The notes under the pieces: model-generated
What the model was told of the DNA's origin: nothing
Database searches by the model: none
What the model saw: the letters and a program-made list of their open reading frames with translations, nothing else
IMG/VR virus record: IMGVR_UViG_3300025889_000277
Span: 1-40,659 of that record
DNA: 40,659 nucleotides
From: a virus
Direction: 5' to 3' (one strand)
Shown: positions 4,619 through 40,659 of the stretch, piece after piece
How positions within the stretch are numbered: position 1 is the first letter of the stretch
Layout: every line of letters starts with the position of its first letter
Program-made: the position numbers and the translations under genes

Positions 4619-4777
4619 CTACACGAGATAGAGAAACGAAACAACGATGGTGAGAATTCCCCATAAAGGGTTTAAGCGTCTTGGTTTCTGTTTCGCTCTC
4701 TGAGCCTTGAAATACCGTCTAATCTCTTCTGTCTGTTGGACTTCGCAGCTATTGAGGAATTGTTTGATGTTATTCAT
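4619..4777 (-). CDS. Small protein with C-terminal membrane segment
   Basis: 52 aa. Residues 1-36 are basic and helical ('EEIRRYFKAQRAKQKPRR'); residues 38-52 ('LWGILTIVVSFLYLV') form a C-terminal membrane anchor with positive charges just before it, predicting a cytoplasmic N-terminus. The start overlaps the end of the lysozyme-like gene by 8 bp, so it belongs to the same leftward cell-wall module. It may be a holin-like or regulatory partner of that enzyme; this is inference from position. Confidence 0.6.
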   Translation of the reverse strand: MNNIKQFLNSCEVQQTEEIRRYFKAQRAKQKPRRLNPLWGILTIVVSFLYLV

Positions 4778-5186
4778 AGTAGTGTTGTTTAACGGTTGCG
4801 AGCCACCCCCACGTATTATCCCCTCCAGTGTATCTGTCTGCTAAAGGGTAGTCTGGGAATCGCTTGTAGTAGGTTGACCATATTCTCATACAGTCTAAAG
4901 TACTTTCTTCTTTGGAGGTGTATGTCTTTCCCTCTCGAAACCCACGATCCCAAGTCATGATATTGTGGCAGTTGTTAGGAGCTATAGTGTCAGTACAGCT
5001 TCGAGTTTCGTGGACAGCTATCGCATCACACAACTTCCGTACGTCCGTTCCATCACTTAACAAGTTAGTTTTTTTTATTGGGGCTTCAACTATTCCCGAA
5101 GAAAACCCCTGCCGTCCATCATCTTGCCATTCTGTTTTACCTCCGCTTTGATGTAATTGATCTGGTCCAGGGATCGTTGTAAACAC
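4770..5186 (-). CDS. Lysozyme/glucosaminidase-like cell-wall hydrolase (probably made by frameshift)
   Basis: The frame has 138 codons, but only about the last 100 look like protein: 'KLCDAIAVHETRSCTD', 'APNNCHNIMTW', 'SKEESTLDCMRIWSTYYKRFP', 'ADRYTGGDNTWGWLATV'. This resembles a lysozyme-like peptidoglycan hydrolase group common, in my recollection, in Patescibacteria, with Glu of 'VHET' as the probable catalytic acid. Cys residues could form disulphides outside the cytoplasm. The frame has no signal peptide. Its first ~97 nt overlap the 86-aa membrane-anchor gene, and a -1 slippery heptamer at 5102-5108 would fuse them into a 193-aa anchored enzyme. The ATG at 5186 is the formal alternative start. 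Confidence 0.65.
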   Translation of the reverse strand: MFTTIPGPDQLHQSGGKTEWQDDGRQGFSSGIVEAPIKKTNLLSDGTDVRKLCDAIAVHETRSCTDTIAPNNCHNIMTWDRGFREGKTYTSKEESTLDCMRIWSTYYKRFPDYPLADRYTGGDNTWGWLATVKQHYYE

Positions 5187-5350
5187 TCGCCCACTTCATG
5201 AGCTGTATCGTGAATAACTGACTGACTTCTGCGAACCTTTCCCAAAATATCTTCAGATGCTTCCGCTACACGGAAACCAAGAAAGAAAACCGAAGAAATA
5301 AAAACCCCAACCAAAAACGAAACGCCGATATGTTTTATTTTTGTATCCAT
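5090..5350 (-). CDS. Membrane anchor / signal-peptide protein upstream of hydrolase
   Basis: 86 aa. Residues 8-27 ('IGVSFLVGVFISSVFFLGF') form a membrane helix after a short basic N-terminus; 'VAEAS' (28-32) could be a signal-peptidase site. Residues 33-80 form a charged extracytoplasmic helix. Alone it resembles an inner-membrane spanin or signal-anchor stub. It ends 12 nt after a GGGTTTT heptamer set in the correct phase for -1 slippage into the hydrolase frame. It is driven by a strong leftward promoter at 5409-5437, apart from the late lysis genes, so it might act in entry, superinfection exclusion or early cell-wall remodelling. Confidence 0.7.
   Translation of the reverse strand: MDTKIKHIGVSFLVGVFISSVFFLGFRVAEASEDILGKVRRSQSVIHDTAHEVGECLQRSLDQINYIKAEVKQNGKMMDGRGFLRE
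5102..5108 (-). other. Candidate -1 programmed frameshift site GGGTTTT
   Basis: On the minus strand the zero-frame reads G GGT TTT, the X XXY YYZ form used for -1 frameshifting. The zero frame stops three codons later (CTT CGG GAA TAG). Slipping back one base continues as TCT TCG GGA ATA GTT in the hydrolase frame. A weak CTTC/GAAG helix and GGG/CCC pairing lie just downstream. Confidence 0.5.
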
Positions 5351-28517: not shown

Positions 28518-29084
28518 ATGAACAAACCACAAAATATCATCGTCCATCACACTCTCGTGTCACGGGAGAAAAACCCAAATCAATTTGAAGCGGTAAACGA
28601 TTATCATATCCGTAAAGGATGGGGAAAGATCGGCTATCATTACTTGATCGAGGCCGATGGAACGATAAAAAAAGGGAGAGAAGAAACCGAGGAAGGAGCA
28701 CACACAAAAGAAGAAAGGATGAACTACCGGAGTATTGGTATTTGTCTGACGGGAAACTTCGATGAAGAGGAACCAACGCTCGAACAATGTAAAGCCCTCC
28801 ACTCTCTTATCACCCAAACACAGAATAAATATTCCATCCCCGACTCACGTATTTACCCTCACAGGCACTTTACTACGTATAAGAGCTGCTGGGGCAATAA
28901 ATTACCTAACGACGTGCTGGGATACCTAAGAATGCGAATAAAGGGAAATGATGAATTGGAACCATGGCAAAAAGAACTCTTCGTATGGGCTTCTGAAGAC
29001 ATCAAAGACATGAAAAAACTCATGGATGGGAACATCTGGTCAATCTTGGCCCTCGTTAAAAGAAAGCTCGATAAAATTAAGTAA
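28518..29084 (+). CDS. N-acetylmuramoyl-L-alanine amidase endolysin
   Basis: 188 aa. Amidase_2/PGRP fold with 'IIVHHT' (His10/His11), 'GYHYLIEADGTI' (39-50), 'EEGAHT', 'YRSIGICLTGNFD' (70-82), 'PHRHFTTYKSCWG' with His115 and Cys124. The ligand set His, His, Cys is complete, so it should cut the amide bond between MurNAc and the stem peptide. The C-terminal ~40 residues are a helical tail ('LEPWQKELFVWASEDIKDMKKLM'), not a known wall-binding domain. No signal peptide, so export depends on the two following holin candidates. Confidence 0.92.
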   Translation: MNKPQNIIVHHTLVSREKNPNQFEAVNDYHIRKGWGKIGYHYLIEADGTIKKGREETEEGAHTKEERMNYRSIGICLTGNFDEEEPTLEQCKALHSLITQTQNKYSIPDSRIYPHRHFTTYKSCWGNKLPNDVLGYLRMRIKGNDELEPWQKELFVWASEDIKDMKKLMDGNIWSILALVKRKLDKIK

Positions 29085-29100
29085 CTATTATTAAAACATT

Positions 29101-29346
29101 ATGGAAATCTTTATCTCATCCCTTATGGGTGTTGTCGTGTCGGGTATTATTGAGTTCGGTAAAAGGAGCGGCTATAAAACAAGTGACCTTTTTATCGGGC
29201 TATCTCTTTTGTTTGGACTTATTTGGGGGTCGATAGAACTGTTTGCCCCCGTTGGACTCTCAGACAATATACTTGATTTTTCCGCTAAAATAATGGGAAC
29301 GGCTGCTATTGTCTACTCCTTCTTTGGTCGCTTCATTAAATCTTAA
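29101..29346 (+). CDS. Holin candidate with two membrane spans
   Basis: 81 aa: span 1 about residues 3-18 ('IFISSLMGVVVSGIIEF'), a basic loop 'GKRSGYKTSD', span 2 about 30-48 ('LFIGLSLLFGLIWGSIELF') and a weaker third hydrophobic segment near the C-terminus ('IMGTAAIVYSFFGRFIKS'). Size, charge and position between endolysin and the next holin gene are typical. It may be holin or antiholin. Confidence 0.65.
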   Translation: MEIFISSLMGVVVSGIIEFGKRSGYKTSDLFIGLSLLFGLIWGSIELFAPVGLSDNILDFSAKIMGTAAIVYSFFGRFIKS

Positions 29347-29361
29347 CGTACCCCTGTCATA

Positions 29362-29775
29362 ATGTACTTGTACTACCTTTCTAACCTTGTGGCTAATCCT
29401 GTAACGAAAGCCTGTGTCGCCATCATATGCACAATACTGCTCAATATTATCGGTATGAATTGGGTTGCGTATGAGGTTCTTTTGATCCTTGTGATGATGG
29501 ATACCTTACTAGGGACCATGATAGCGTACCAAGAAAAAAATATTAGCTCTCAGGGCTTTTTTCGCACAGGGAAAAAACTCATAGTGTATTTCACGTTGCT
29601 GATCTCTGCTCATCAGGTGGTAAGAATCTCTGATTTAACTGCTTGGCTTGATCCTTCCATGGCCCTCTTCTGTGCTGCCACTGAACTGATTTCTATCATC
29701 GAAAATGCTCATCGACTTGGGATTCCGGTCCCTAAAGGGATTGTCACCAAGCTTGAGCAATATCGGCGCATGTAG
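29362..29775 (+). CDS. Phage holin (toxin-secretion/holin family)
   Basis: 137 aa. It has spans at about 14-33, 38-55 and 78-96, and the family marks 'VMMDTLLGTMIAYQEKNISSQGFFRTGKKL' and a C-terminal 'ELISIIENAHRLGIPVPKGIV', both well known from Phage_holin_4 proteins (D-x-LLG ... G-x-x-x-K; SI-x-ENA-x-x-LG-x-P-x-P). It would form the membrane lesions that release the amidase. It is the last rightward gene. Confidence 0.88.
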   Translation: MYLYYLSNLVANPVTKACVAIICTILLNIIGMNWVAYEVLLILVMMDTLLGTMIAYQEKNISSQGFFRTGKKLIVYFTLLISAHQVVRISDLTAWLDPSMALFCAATELISIIENAHRLGIPVPKGIVTKLEQYRRM

Positions 29776-34934: not shown

Positions 34935-35285
34935 CTAGAGCGGATTCACCATCCGAAGAACCTCCTTCAGGGCGCAGTATTCGGGGGAGAGGAGGCATGA
35001 GCCACTAGCTAAAAAACCCACCACTCCCACAAGTATTCCAATGAAAGATACAAAAAGAAGTATGTCTGCTAGACCATCTCCAATTATGTACTTTTTTGAG
35101 GCAATCAGAGTGAGAATAAACATTGCAGCTGAAGCAACCATTATCGCTAATGAAACAATTGGGGCGAAGGACTGCACCTTCACGAACTCCGGCCAAAAGG
35201 TTTCAATGCCTGTTCCGAGCTGAGAAGCCAGGGTTTCCAGGACGACTTTCACGTCCGTGTAGATTTGTTGGGTTACGGGTTCCAT
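34935..35285 (-). CDS. Membrane protein, paralogue 1 (EFVKVQ family)
   Basis: 116 aa. An N-terminal amphipathic helix ('VLETLASQLGTGIETFWPEF' then VKVQ), span 1 about residues 42-63, span 2 about 72-95, and a C-terminal cytoplasmic tail 'CLLSPEYCALKEVLRMVNPL'. Both ends are nearly identical to those of the gene at 35501 while the spans differ. I know similar phage proteins (LAxxLGTTxEHxWxxLVxQ ... NPEYxALKEIL) of unknown function, sometimes suspected to be holin-like. Tandem arrangement with its paralogue points to a recent duplication. Confidence 0.75.
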   Translation of the reverse strand: MEPVTQQIYTDVKVVLETLASQLGTGIETFWPEFVKVQSFAPIVSLAIMVASAAMFILTLIASKKYIIGDGLADILLFVSFIGILVGVVGFLASGSCLLSPEYCALKEVLRMVNPL

Positions 35286-35500: not shown

Positions 35501-35851
35501 TTAAAGCGGATTCACCATCTGAAGCACCTCCTTTAGGGCGCAGTACTCAGGGGAGAATAGACAGGGGAATCCTTCCACCAAAAGAACAAGACCCAAAAGG
35601 AAAAACACGGCTGCAATAGCACCGCCAAATATGGTCAACGGAGCCTCTAGGTCTTTTTCGTAAGCAATCTTGTAAAATCGGAAGATAAAATAACTGGACA
35701 CAGAACCAGCAATAAGAAGCAATATCCCACCTATAGGCTGAGCTATTTGCACCTTCACAAACTCAGGCCAAAAGGTTTCAACTCCCGTCCCGAGTTGAGA
35801 AGCGAGAGCTTGAAGTGCGTTCTTCACGTCTTCGTAGATTTGTGTTTCCAT
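35501..35851 (-). CDS. Membrane protein, paralogue 2 (EFVKVQ family)
   Basis: 116 aa, the same length as paralogue 1. 'LASQLGTGVETFWPEFVKVQ' at residues about 17-36, span 1 about 40-60, charged loop 'RFYKIAYEKDLE', span 2 about 72-93, and tail 'CLFSPEYCALKEVLQMVNPL'. The cytoplasmic ends are constrained while spans and loops have diverged, which suggests both copies bind the same partner or each other, like holin/antiholin pairs. This is inference. Confidence 0.75.
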   Translation of the reverse strand: METQIYEDVKNALQALASQLGTGVETFWPEFVKVQIAQPIGGILLLIAGSVSSYFIFRFYKIAYEKDLEAPLTIFGGAIAAVFFLLGLVLLVEGFPCLFSPEYCALKEVLQMVNPL

Positions 35852-39635: not shown

Positions 39636-40659
39636 TTAAGATTCAATAACAAGTTCTTTATAATCGTTCTCCAAAATCCCTAACTTCCAAGCCATACAAG
39701 CGTCGGCTTTTTTGTTACGGGCGACAAAATTAGGATCAATACCGCTCATATAGACTCGGCCTGTAGATGGGCATGAGTATTTGAGAAAGTAAGCATCTTG
39801 AGGAAAAACACCTGACACTTTGTAGAGCTCGTTTCCTCGTTCTGATTTATCAAGTAATTCATGTTTCACTCCATAGAGAAACATTTCTGGATCCATGGCT
39901 TTCAGGGCAGCCATGCGTTGTTCCATGTTTTCAATTCCCATGACCTCTTTGAAGGTGAGCTTATTTTTTACCACCTTTTCCCAAAGATCTTTCTCAAATC
40001 GAACTCCCCACAAGCAGTACATTTCATACCCATCGGAAAATTGAATAGCAGCCTCATCAGTTGAGTGAAGTCGGACAATGCTCGACATTTCGTAAGGTAA
40101 ATCAGTCCATACCTTTGTTGGCATTCGACTGACAAAGCAAATATCTTTCAGGGTGATCATTTCGTAAATTCCTGCATTCAGTAGATCAACGAATTTATTG
40201 AAACCATCATGGTGAAAAATATTGAGCCGTTGGAAAAAGTCATAAAAGGAAACCCATCCATAGTCTTCAATTCGGCCATAATAAGAGGGGTCGAAATATT
40301 GTAATTTGGCCCTGACGTTGGCCCCGACGTTGGCCCAGACGTTGACCCCGACGTTGACCCCGACGTTGTCCCAGACGTTGTCCCCGACGTTGGCCCCGAC
40401 GTTGACCCCGACGTTGTCCCAGACGTTGGCCCTGACGTTGGCCCTGACGTTGTCCCCGACGTTGTCCCAGACGTTGGCCCCGACGTTGGCCCAGACGTTG
40501 TCCCAGACGTTGGCCCTGACGTTGTCCCCGACGTTGGCCCCTTGTTTCAACATATTTGCTGCAAATTGAATTCCAAGAGGGCTATCAAGAAAAACAATGT
40601 ATTTAGGCTTTTCTAATTTCGAGAATTCATAGAGCCAGTTAATGCTATCAATGGCCTTT
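39636..40659 (-). CDS. DUF6745-like protein with tetrapeptide repeat array (cut by window edge)
   Basis: This part continues the gene begun at 251. After joining, the protein has about 376 residues: unique N-terminus (1-76), 19 [ADV]-N-V-[GWR] repeats (about 77-152), then a ~220-aa folded domain. 'IVRLHSTDEAAIQFSDGYEMYCLWGVRFEKDLW', 'IENMEQRMAALKAMDPEMFLYGV', and 'YKELVI' near the end match my memory of DUF6745 (SP motif, DGY-x-x-Y, N-x-E-x-R, terminal 'AWxLG'). Function is unknown. No internal ATG before 40659 is needed: the frame is open to the edge. Confidence 0.75.
   Translation of the reverse strand, partial: KAIDSINWLYEFSKLEKPKYIVFLDSPLGIQFAANMLKQGANVGDNVRANVWDNVWANVGANVWDNVGDNVRANVRANVWDNVGVNVGANVGDNVWDNVGVNVGVNVWANVGANVRAKLQYFDPSYYGRIEDYGWVSFYDFFQRLNIFHHDGFNKFVDLLNAGIYEMITLKDICFVSRMPTKVWTDLPYEMSSIVRLHSTDEAAIQFSDGYEMYCLWGVRFEKDLWEKVVKNKLTFKEVMGIENMEQRMAALKAMDPEMFLYGVKHELLDKSERGNELYKVSGVFPQDAYFLKYSCPSTGRVYMSGIDPNFVARNKKADACMAWKLGILENDYKELVIES
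40311..40538. repeat. 19 x 12-bp in-frame tandem repeat array
   Basis: Plus-strand unit GACGTTGNCCCN, repeated 19 times. As read on the coding (minus) strand, Asn and Val codons (AAC, GTC) are fixed. Variation sits at two bases: the middle base of GNC (Ala, Val or Asp) and the first base of NGG (Gly, Trp or Arg). No unit shows GGC (Gly) or CGG at these positions. The other end of the window (1-20) holds different units of the same array. Confidence 0.95.
40534..40659. repeat. Right copy of 126-bp terminal overlap
   Basis: Identical to 19-144. Removing one copy gives a circle of about 40,515 bp and restores the DUF6745-like gene as one continuous frame (71 codons upstream of the ATG at 40553). 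Confidence 0.95.

Follow-up and report, generated by a model that had tools for sequence, protein, structure and literature searches.

The window analyzed here, i.e. the whole stretch of DNA, is an IMG/VR virus record of 40,659 nt that carries a terminase, a P22-like portal, a capsid, an M23 peptidase domain, an Amidase_2 endolysin and a holin. Based on sequence comparison, one of its genes very likely gives rise to two proteins, an anchor-only protein and a -1 frameshifted, membrane-tethered, GH73-like wall enzyme. The slip is supported by the two-frame layout, the -1 direction, the slippery tetramers of nine lineages and relatives in which the same parts are fused within a single frame; slip frequency, membrane orientation, enzyme activity and biological use we infer as components of the best explanation.

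In the proposed mechanism, one phage gene would be decoded in two ways. Most ribosomes would halt at TAG 5092, yielding an 86-aa single-span membrane protein, and some would slip back one base, with tRNA-Phe re-pairing from U_UUU to UUU at 5104-5102, to produce a 193-aa membrane-tethered GH73-like peptidoglycan glucosaminidase whose catalytic domain would lie outside the membrane. By way of the slip, a wall enzyme with a potential for self-damage would be made in small amounts and only in tethered form, amid enzyme-free anchors.

Structure of the two-frame gene

The features of the gene in the window were as follows.

5090..5350, minus strand: anchor ORF in the zero frame, 86 aa, from ATG at 5350 to the TAG stop at 5092-5090
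5273..5329, minus strand: predicted membrane span, anchor residues 8-26 (Kyte-Doolittle 19-residue mean 2.31)
5102..5108, minus strand: putative slippery site G_GGT_TTT, of which the tetramer, here T_TTT, is the family-conserved part
4770..5102, minus strand: post-slip -1 frame with linker and hydrolase domain, 110 codons that begin with TCT and end with Glu, then TAA at 4772-4770
4773..5045, minus strand: GH73-like glucosaminidase domain, starting at the conserved Asp and running to the C-terminal residue
4773..5186, minus strand: 138-codon ORF read from GTG 5186, its N-terminal part overlapping the anchor

The anchor consists of a short basic N-terminus, one membrane span and a helical extracytoplasmic stretch with one Cys. 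The basic N-terminus suggests an N-in/C-out topology and, together with the span, would place the hydrolase domain at the wall. The 3' end of the anchor ORF reads AGG GGT TTT CTT CGG GAA TAG. The initial annotation had proposed that a -1 frameshift joins a membrane anchor and a cell-wall hydrolase into one protein, and its reading of the window was reproduced: the anchor ORF (5350-5090), the -1 ORF (GTG 5186 to TAA, 138 codons) and the heptamer (5108-5102) were recovered as described, three sense codons follow TTT before the zero-frame TAG, and the product of a -1 slip is 193 aa long. After the slip site, codon usage favours the -1 frame. The hydrolase domain shows the conserved Glu (E23 in the 101-aa domain query) and an NC..IM.W motif.

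The overlap between the two frames spans 35 zero-frame codons, and the probability of finding at least one slippery tetramer in them by chance is about 0.85, so that the motif alone is weak evidence in a single sequence. At the sequence level it is the comparison across the family, and not the motif of the window by itself, that raises the frameshift above chance.

Relatives and their frame layout

Single-protein scans of viral and genome collections returned no relatives, and nothing was found by a terminase scan or a plasmid scan. The domain alone retrieved a single relative, UOF79930.1 of phage MW202647.1 (Manatee Spring), in which one ORF encodes a membrane span and then the domain; its 41% identity to the window covers the domain only. 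Other relatives were reached only once the window had been paired with MW202647, by scanning viral contigs with profiles and with degenerate DNA patterns; a last degenerate-pattern scan gave no further members. One candidate (L019) was discarded as a false positive, and the resulting family, which may lack cellular or prophage copies, comprised 13 distinct members, the window plus 12 relatives. The tree of the 13 domains was too weak to date gains or losses of the split.

Membrane span and glucosaminidase domain were fused in one open frame in L002, L003 and L017. Nine members were split, namely the window and eight other lineages (L006, L007, L008, L011, L012, L013 with its copies L018 and L020, L016 and L022). 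In all nine, the anchor ORF was offset by +1 from the frame of the domain, hence each of them needs a -1 shift, and no stop lay between the slip and the domain. The anchor of L022 was complete once more of the contig was read, and has a membrane span and two Cys. For L004/L005, a -1 slip at a C_CCC site had been assumed and was then withdrawn: both frames are open, the domain frame from an ATG, and codon usage favours the domain frame throughout, for which reason this member was counted as probably single-frame. Not every overlap in the family would hence be a frameshift. The proposal of a fused anchor and hydrolase is borne out to the extent that homologues are either single-frame fusions or -1 split at a slippery tetramer; moreover, homology of the hydrolase to its relatives starts past the slip site, as had been anticipated.

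Not one homologue carries the N-terminal part of the 138-codon ORF, whose constant presence would have spoken against the frameshift, and GTG 5186 is therefore probably not the real start of the hydrolase gene. This bears on the possibility that anchor and hydrolase are two separate overlapping genes, initiated independently or by termination-reinitiation coupling. Overlapping pairs are common in phages, the window offers both this GTG and a TTG six codons ahead of the conserved Asp, and L016 has an ATG overlapping the end of the anchor. However, the N-terminus read from 5186 is not conserved. In four lineages (L007, L011, L012 and L013) the domain frame offers no ATG, GTG or TTG from its last stop up to the domain, nor any CTG, ATT, ATC or ATA in the case of L007, which makes separate initiation hard to defend. 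A domain started alone would also be devoid of an export signal, whereas the single-frame relatives give it a membrane span. Separate genes were consequently considered unlikely.

The domains of L012 and L013 were open only with translation table 25 (TGA=Gly), and the Gly residues so read fall at conserved Gly positions. The same was observed for the gene on the contigs of L012, L013, L018 and L020, open only under code 25, which suggests Gracilibacteria or Absconditabacteria as hosts. With two members on this code, the family extends to phages of the Candidate Phyla Radiation, about whose infection biology little is known.

A further possibility is that a true single-frame gene was split by a sequencing or assembly indel, or has decayed. 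In favour of this, G4, T4 and A8 runs lie close to the join in the window, which stems from one metagenomic contig, and single-frame relatives exist. Nevertheless, the same -1 layout occurs in nine divergent lineages, and random indels would not share one direction beside slippery tetramers. In addition, L013, L018 and L020, from three metagenomes, were identical at the slip region (4 mismatches in 5,037 nt and 4 in 1,316 nt), and the recurrence of this code-25 member argues against a sequencing indel; decay is at odds with intact conserved domain residues and with codon usage that is gene-like in both parts. An artefactual or degenerate split was thus judged very improbable, and a frameshift remained the preferred reading.

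In the anchors of L007, L008, L011, L012, L013, L016 and L022, the helical stretch outside the membrane contains two Cys residues, while the window has one and L006 none. The pair suggests a disulphide hairpin or a dimer. L017 (11066-12178, plus strand) encodes in one ORF a membrane span, a two-Cys helical segment, an M23 peptidase stretch and then the glucosaminidase domain; judged from its sequence, it is a two-enzyme relative of the anchor fusion.

Slippery tetramers at the end of the anchor frame

The zero-frame contexts of the split members were, for T_TTT, GGT TTT CTT CGG GAA TAG (window), GAT TTT CAG TAG (L006), GTT TTT CCA AAG GAA CAG TAA (L007), AGT TTT TAG (L008), GGT TTT TAA (L011) and TGT TTT TAA (L016); for T_TTC, GAT TTC TGA (L022); and for A_AAG, GAA AAG TAG (L012) and GTA AAG TAG (L013). 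Each of the nine thus had T_TTT, T_TTC or A_AAG within the last six sense codons, compared with 21 of 152 control ORFs (P about 2e-8), the controls being other ORFs of the same phages and the six-codon limit having been chosen after seeing the data. The tetramer was the last sense codon in six of the nine split members and in 10 of the 152 controls (P about 6e-6). The stretch open in both frames was short, at 10-16 nt in L008, L011, L016 and L022 and at 25 nt in L007, and such a tetramer was present in all five. At the slip, the frame favoured by codon usage changed from that of the anchor to that of the domain in each of the eight split members for which a score was computed, i.e. all but L022.

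The canonical heptamer emphasized in the initial annotation is present in the window as G_GGT_TTT; among the nine split members, however, the window alone has a perfect one, so that the heptamer was rejected as a family signal and the conserved element is instead a Z_ZZN tetramer.

The joined message might alternatively arise by slippage of RNA polymerase rather than of the ribosome, given the homopolymers near the join, including the A8 run at 5076-5069. This run is located past the zero-frame stop and cannot supply the shift, and the runs at the slip sites themselves (T4, T5, A4) are only 4-5 nt long, shorter than transcriptional slippage normally needs. Moreover, slippery codons for Phe and Lys agree with the ranking of ribosomal slippage determined in Escherichia coli, A_AAG >> U_UUC > U_UUU > C_CCU = C_CCC > A_AAA (Sharma et al., PMC4066793), whose top three tetramers are those used by the split family. 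Transcriptional slippage would accordingly be a most improbable source of the fusion, with ribosomal slippage favoured.

Sequences downstream of the slip site

Comparison of folding with shuffled sequence revealed no conserved downstream stimulator in the split members. Hairpins 3' of the site were found in L007 (GGAACAGU...ACUGUUCC; z -4.2 and -3.1) and in L022 (GGGGUAG...CUACCCC; z -3.1 and -1.8), and folding 3' of the site in the window was no better than in shuffles (z -0.8 and +1.4), as in most other split members. A small possible pseudoknot after the window site (CUUC/GAAG plus GGG/CCC) was not counted, since no spacer separates it from the slip site and folding there did not exceed that of shuffled sequence.

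In E. coli, tetramers without a stimulator are barely above background (PMC4066793). Accordingly, three hypotheses were considered: the ribosomes of the hosts may slip more easily, the adjacent stop codon may help, or a low efficiency may be what the phage requires. The position of the slippery codon beside a stop raises the question of stop-assisted -1 slipping. Tentatively, and with less than even confidence, the family could represent a conserved recoding class in which a slippery tetramer abuts or closely precedes the zero-frame stop and the paused terminating ribosome slips -1 without a conserved RNA stimulator, whereby phages, some of them with TGA=Gly, would make a scarce tethered glucosaminidase amid enzyme-free anchors.

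The hydrolase domain

Eighteen columns were invariant among the 13 domains, including the Glu of an AET/AES motif and NC...M.W, and the conserved, putatively catalytic Glu was kept in every member. PF01832 (Glucosaminidase) was matched at E<=1 by nine of the 13 members (best E 4.9e-6). The window domain by itself did not match PF01832, nor did it show any significant sequence match in Pfam, PHROG, NCBIfam or PDB. Its fold model had a mean pLDDT of 88, and the top Foldseek matches in the PDB were GH73 enzymes, with probabilities of 0.99 for LytB and 0.93 for the Thermotoga maritima glucosaminidase and weak E-values (0.23 at best). The domain was named GH73-like on the basis of the PF01832 matches of its relatives and of these fold matches, and is predicted to have glucosaminidase activity. 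It had been described as lysozyme-like, which holds for the fold group, though GH73 (glucosaminidase)-like is the more precise assignment.

Comparison with known systems

Well-known -1 frameshifts in phages serve mostly tail assembly, and those in bacteria serve transposases, DnaX and a few others. The putative frameshift described here resembles the bacterial Z_ZZN type of IS1/IS3-family elements (PMC4066793) in its tetramers, its -1 direction and its short product plus longer fusion, but it joins a membrane anchor to a wall hydrolase, with no transposase involved, has a stop directly after the slippery codon in six of nine lineages and is devoid of a conserved 3' stimulator. With the tail-assembly frameshifts (e.g. 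the putative site of corynephage phi16, PMC5506516) it shares a phage gene pair joined by -1 frameshifting, although the genes are unrelated and lie outside the tail module.

The enzyme part is similar to GH73 glucosaminidases (PF01832; LytB 7pj3, T. maritima 4qdn, FlgJ 5dn4) in predicted fold, in the family match of most members and in the conserved Glu; in contrast with the matched LytB and FlgJ chains, the domain is shorter (about 100 aa) and mounted on a membrane span. SAR endolysins such as Lys of phage HP1 (PMC7312051) are likewise phage wall hydrolases with an N-terminal membrane span. HP1 Lys, however, has a muraminidase domain and belongs to a lysis cassette, whereas the glucosaminidase-like domain described here lies away from the holin-amidase pair, follows a helical linker and is joined by a putative frameshift.

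The arrangement was not found in literature on frameshifting combined with endolysins, holins, peptidoglycan hydrolases or phages of Patescibacteria/Candidate Phyla Radiation, a survey that covered few subscription papers. If true, the dosing and membrane tethering of a wall hydrolase by a conserved frameshift would add a new use to those known. A frameshift-blind gene caller would report two unrelated hypothetical proteins, or lose the enzyme altogether.

Genomic context and possible role

The amidase and the holin of the window map to 28518-29775, and the anchor-hydrolase gene, at a distance of over 23 kb, is not part of this lysis cassette; such a separation makes a classical endolysin role doubtful for the gene. 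As read from the sequences, with no profile involved, its downstream neighbour resembles a YqaJ-type exonuclease in L007 and L013 and a DnaB-type helicase in L003. Amidase_2 or M23 was matched separately in several of these phages, though not in L007, L011 or MW202647. Considering the distance from amidase and holin, the neighbours and the separate Amidase_2 or M23 matches of several phages, an accessory, low-dose enzyme for wall cutting or remodelling is, with moderate confidence, more likely than a main endolysin.

A 52-aa ORF (window 4619-4777, minus strand) starts with an ATG that overlaps the 3' end of the hydrolase frame, has a hydrophobic C-terminus and is a possible partner small membrane protein. 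Elsewhere in the window, two paralogous 116-aa membrane proteins are encoded at 34935-35285 and 35501-35851 (minus strand), with the common motifs GTGIETFWPEF/GTGVETFWPEF and LLSPEYCALKEV/LFSPEYCALKEV, and the protein encoded at 39636-40553 (minus strand) has a degenerate short repeat at its N-terminus (GANVWDNVGDNVRANV...).
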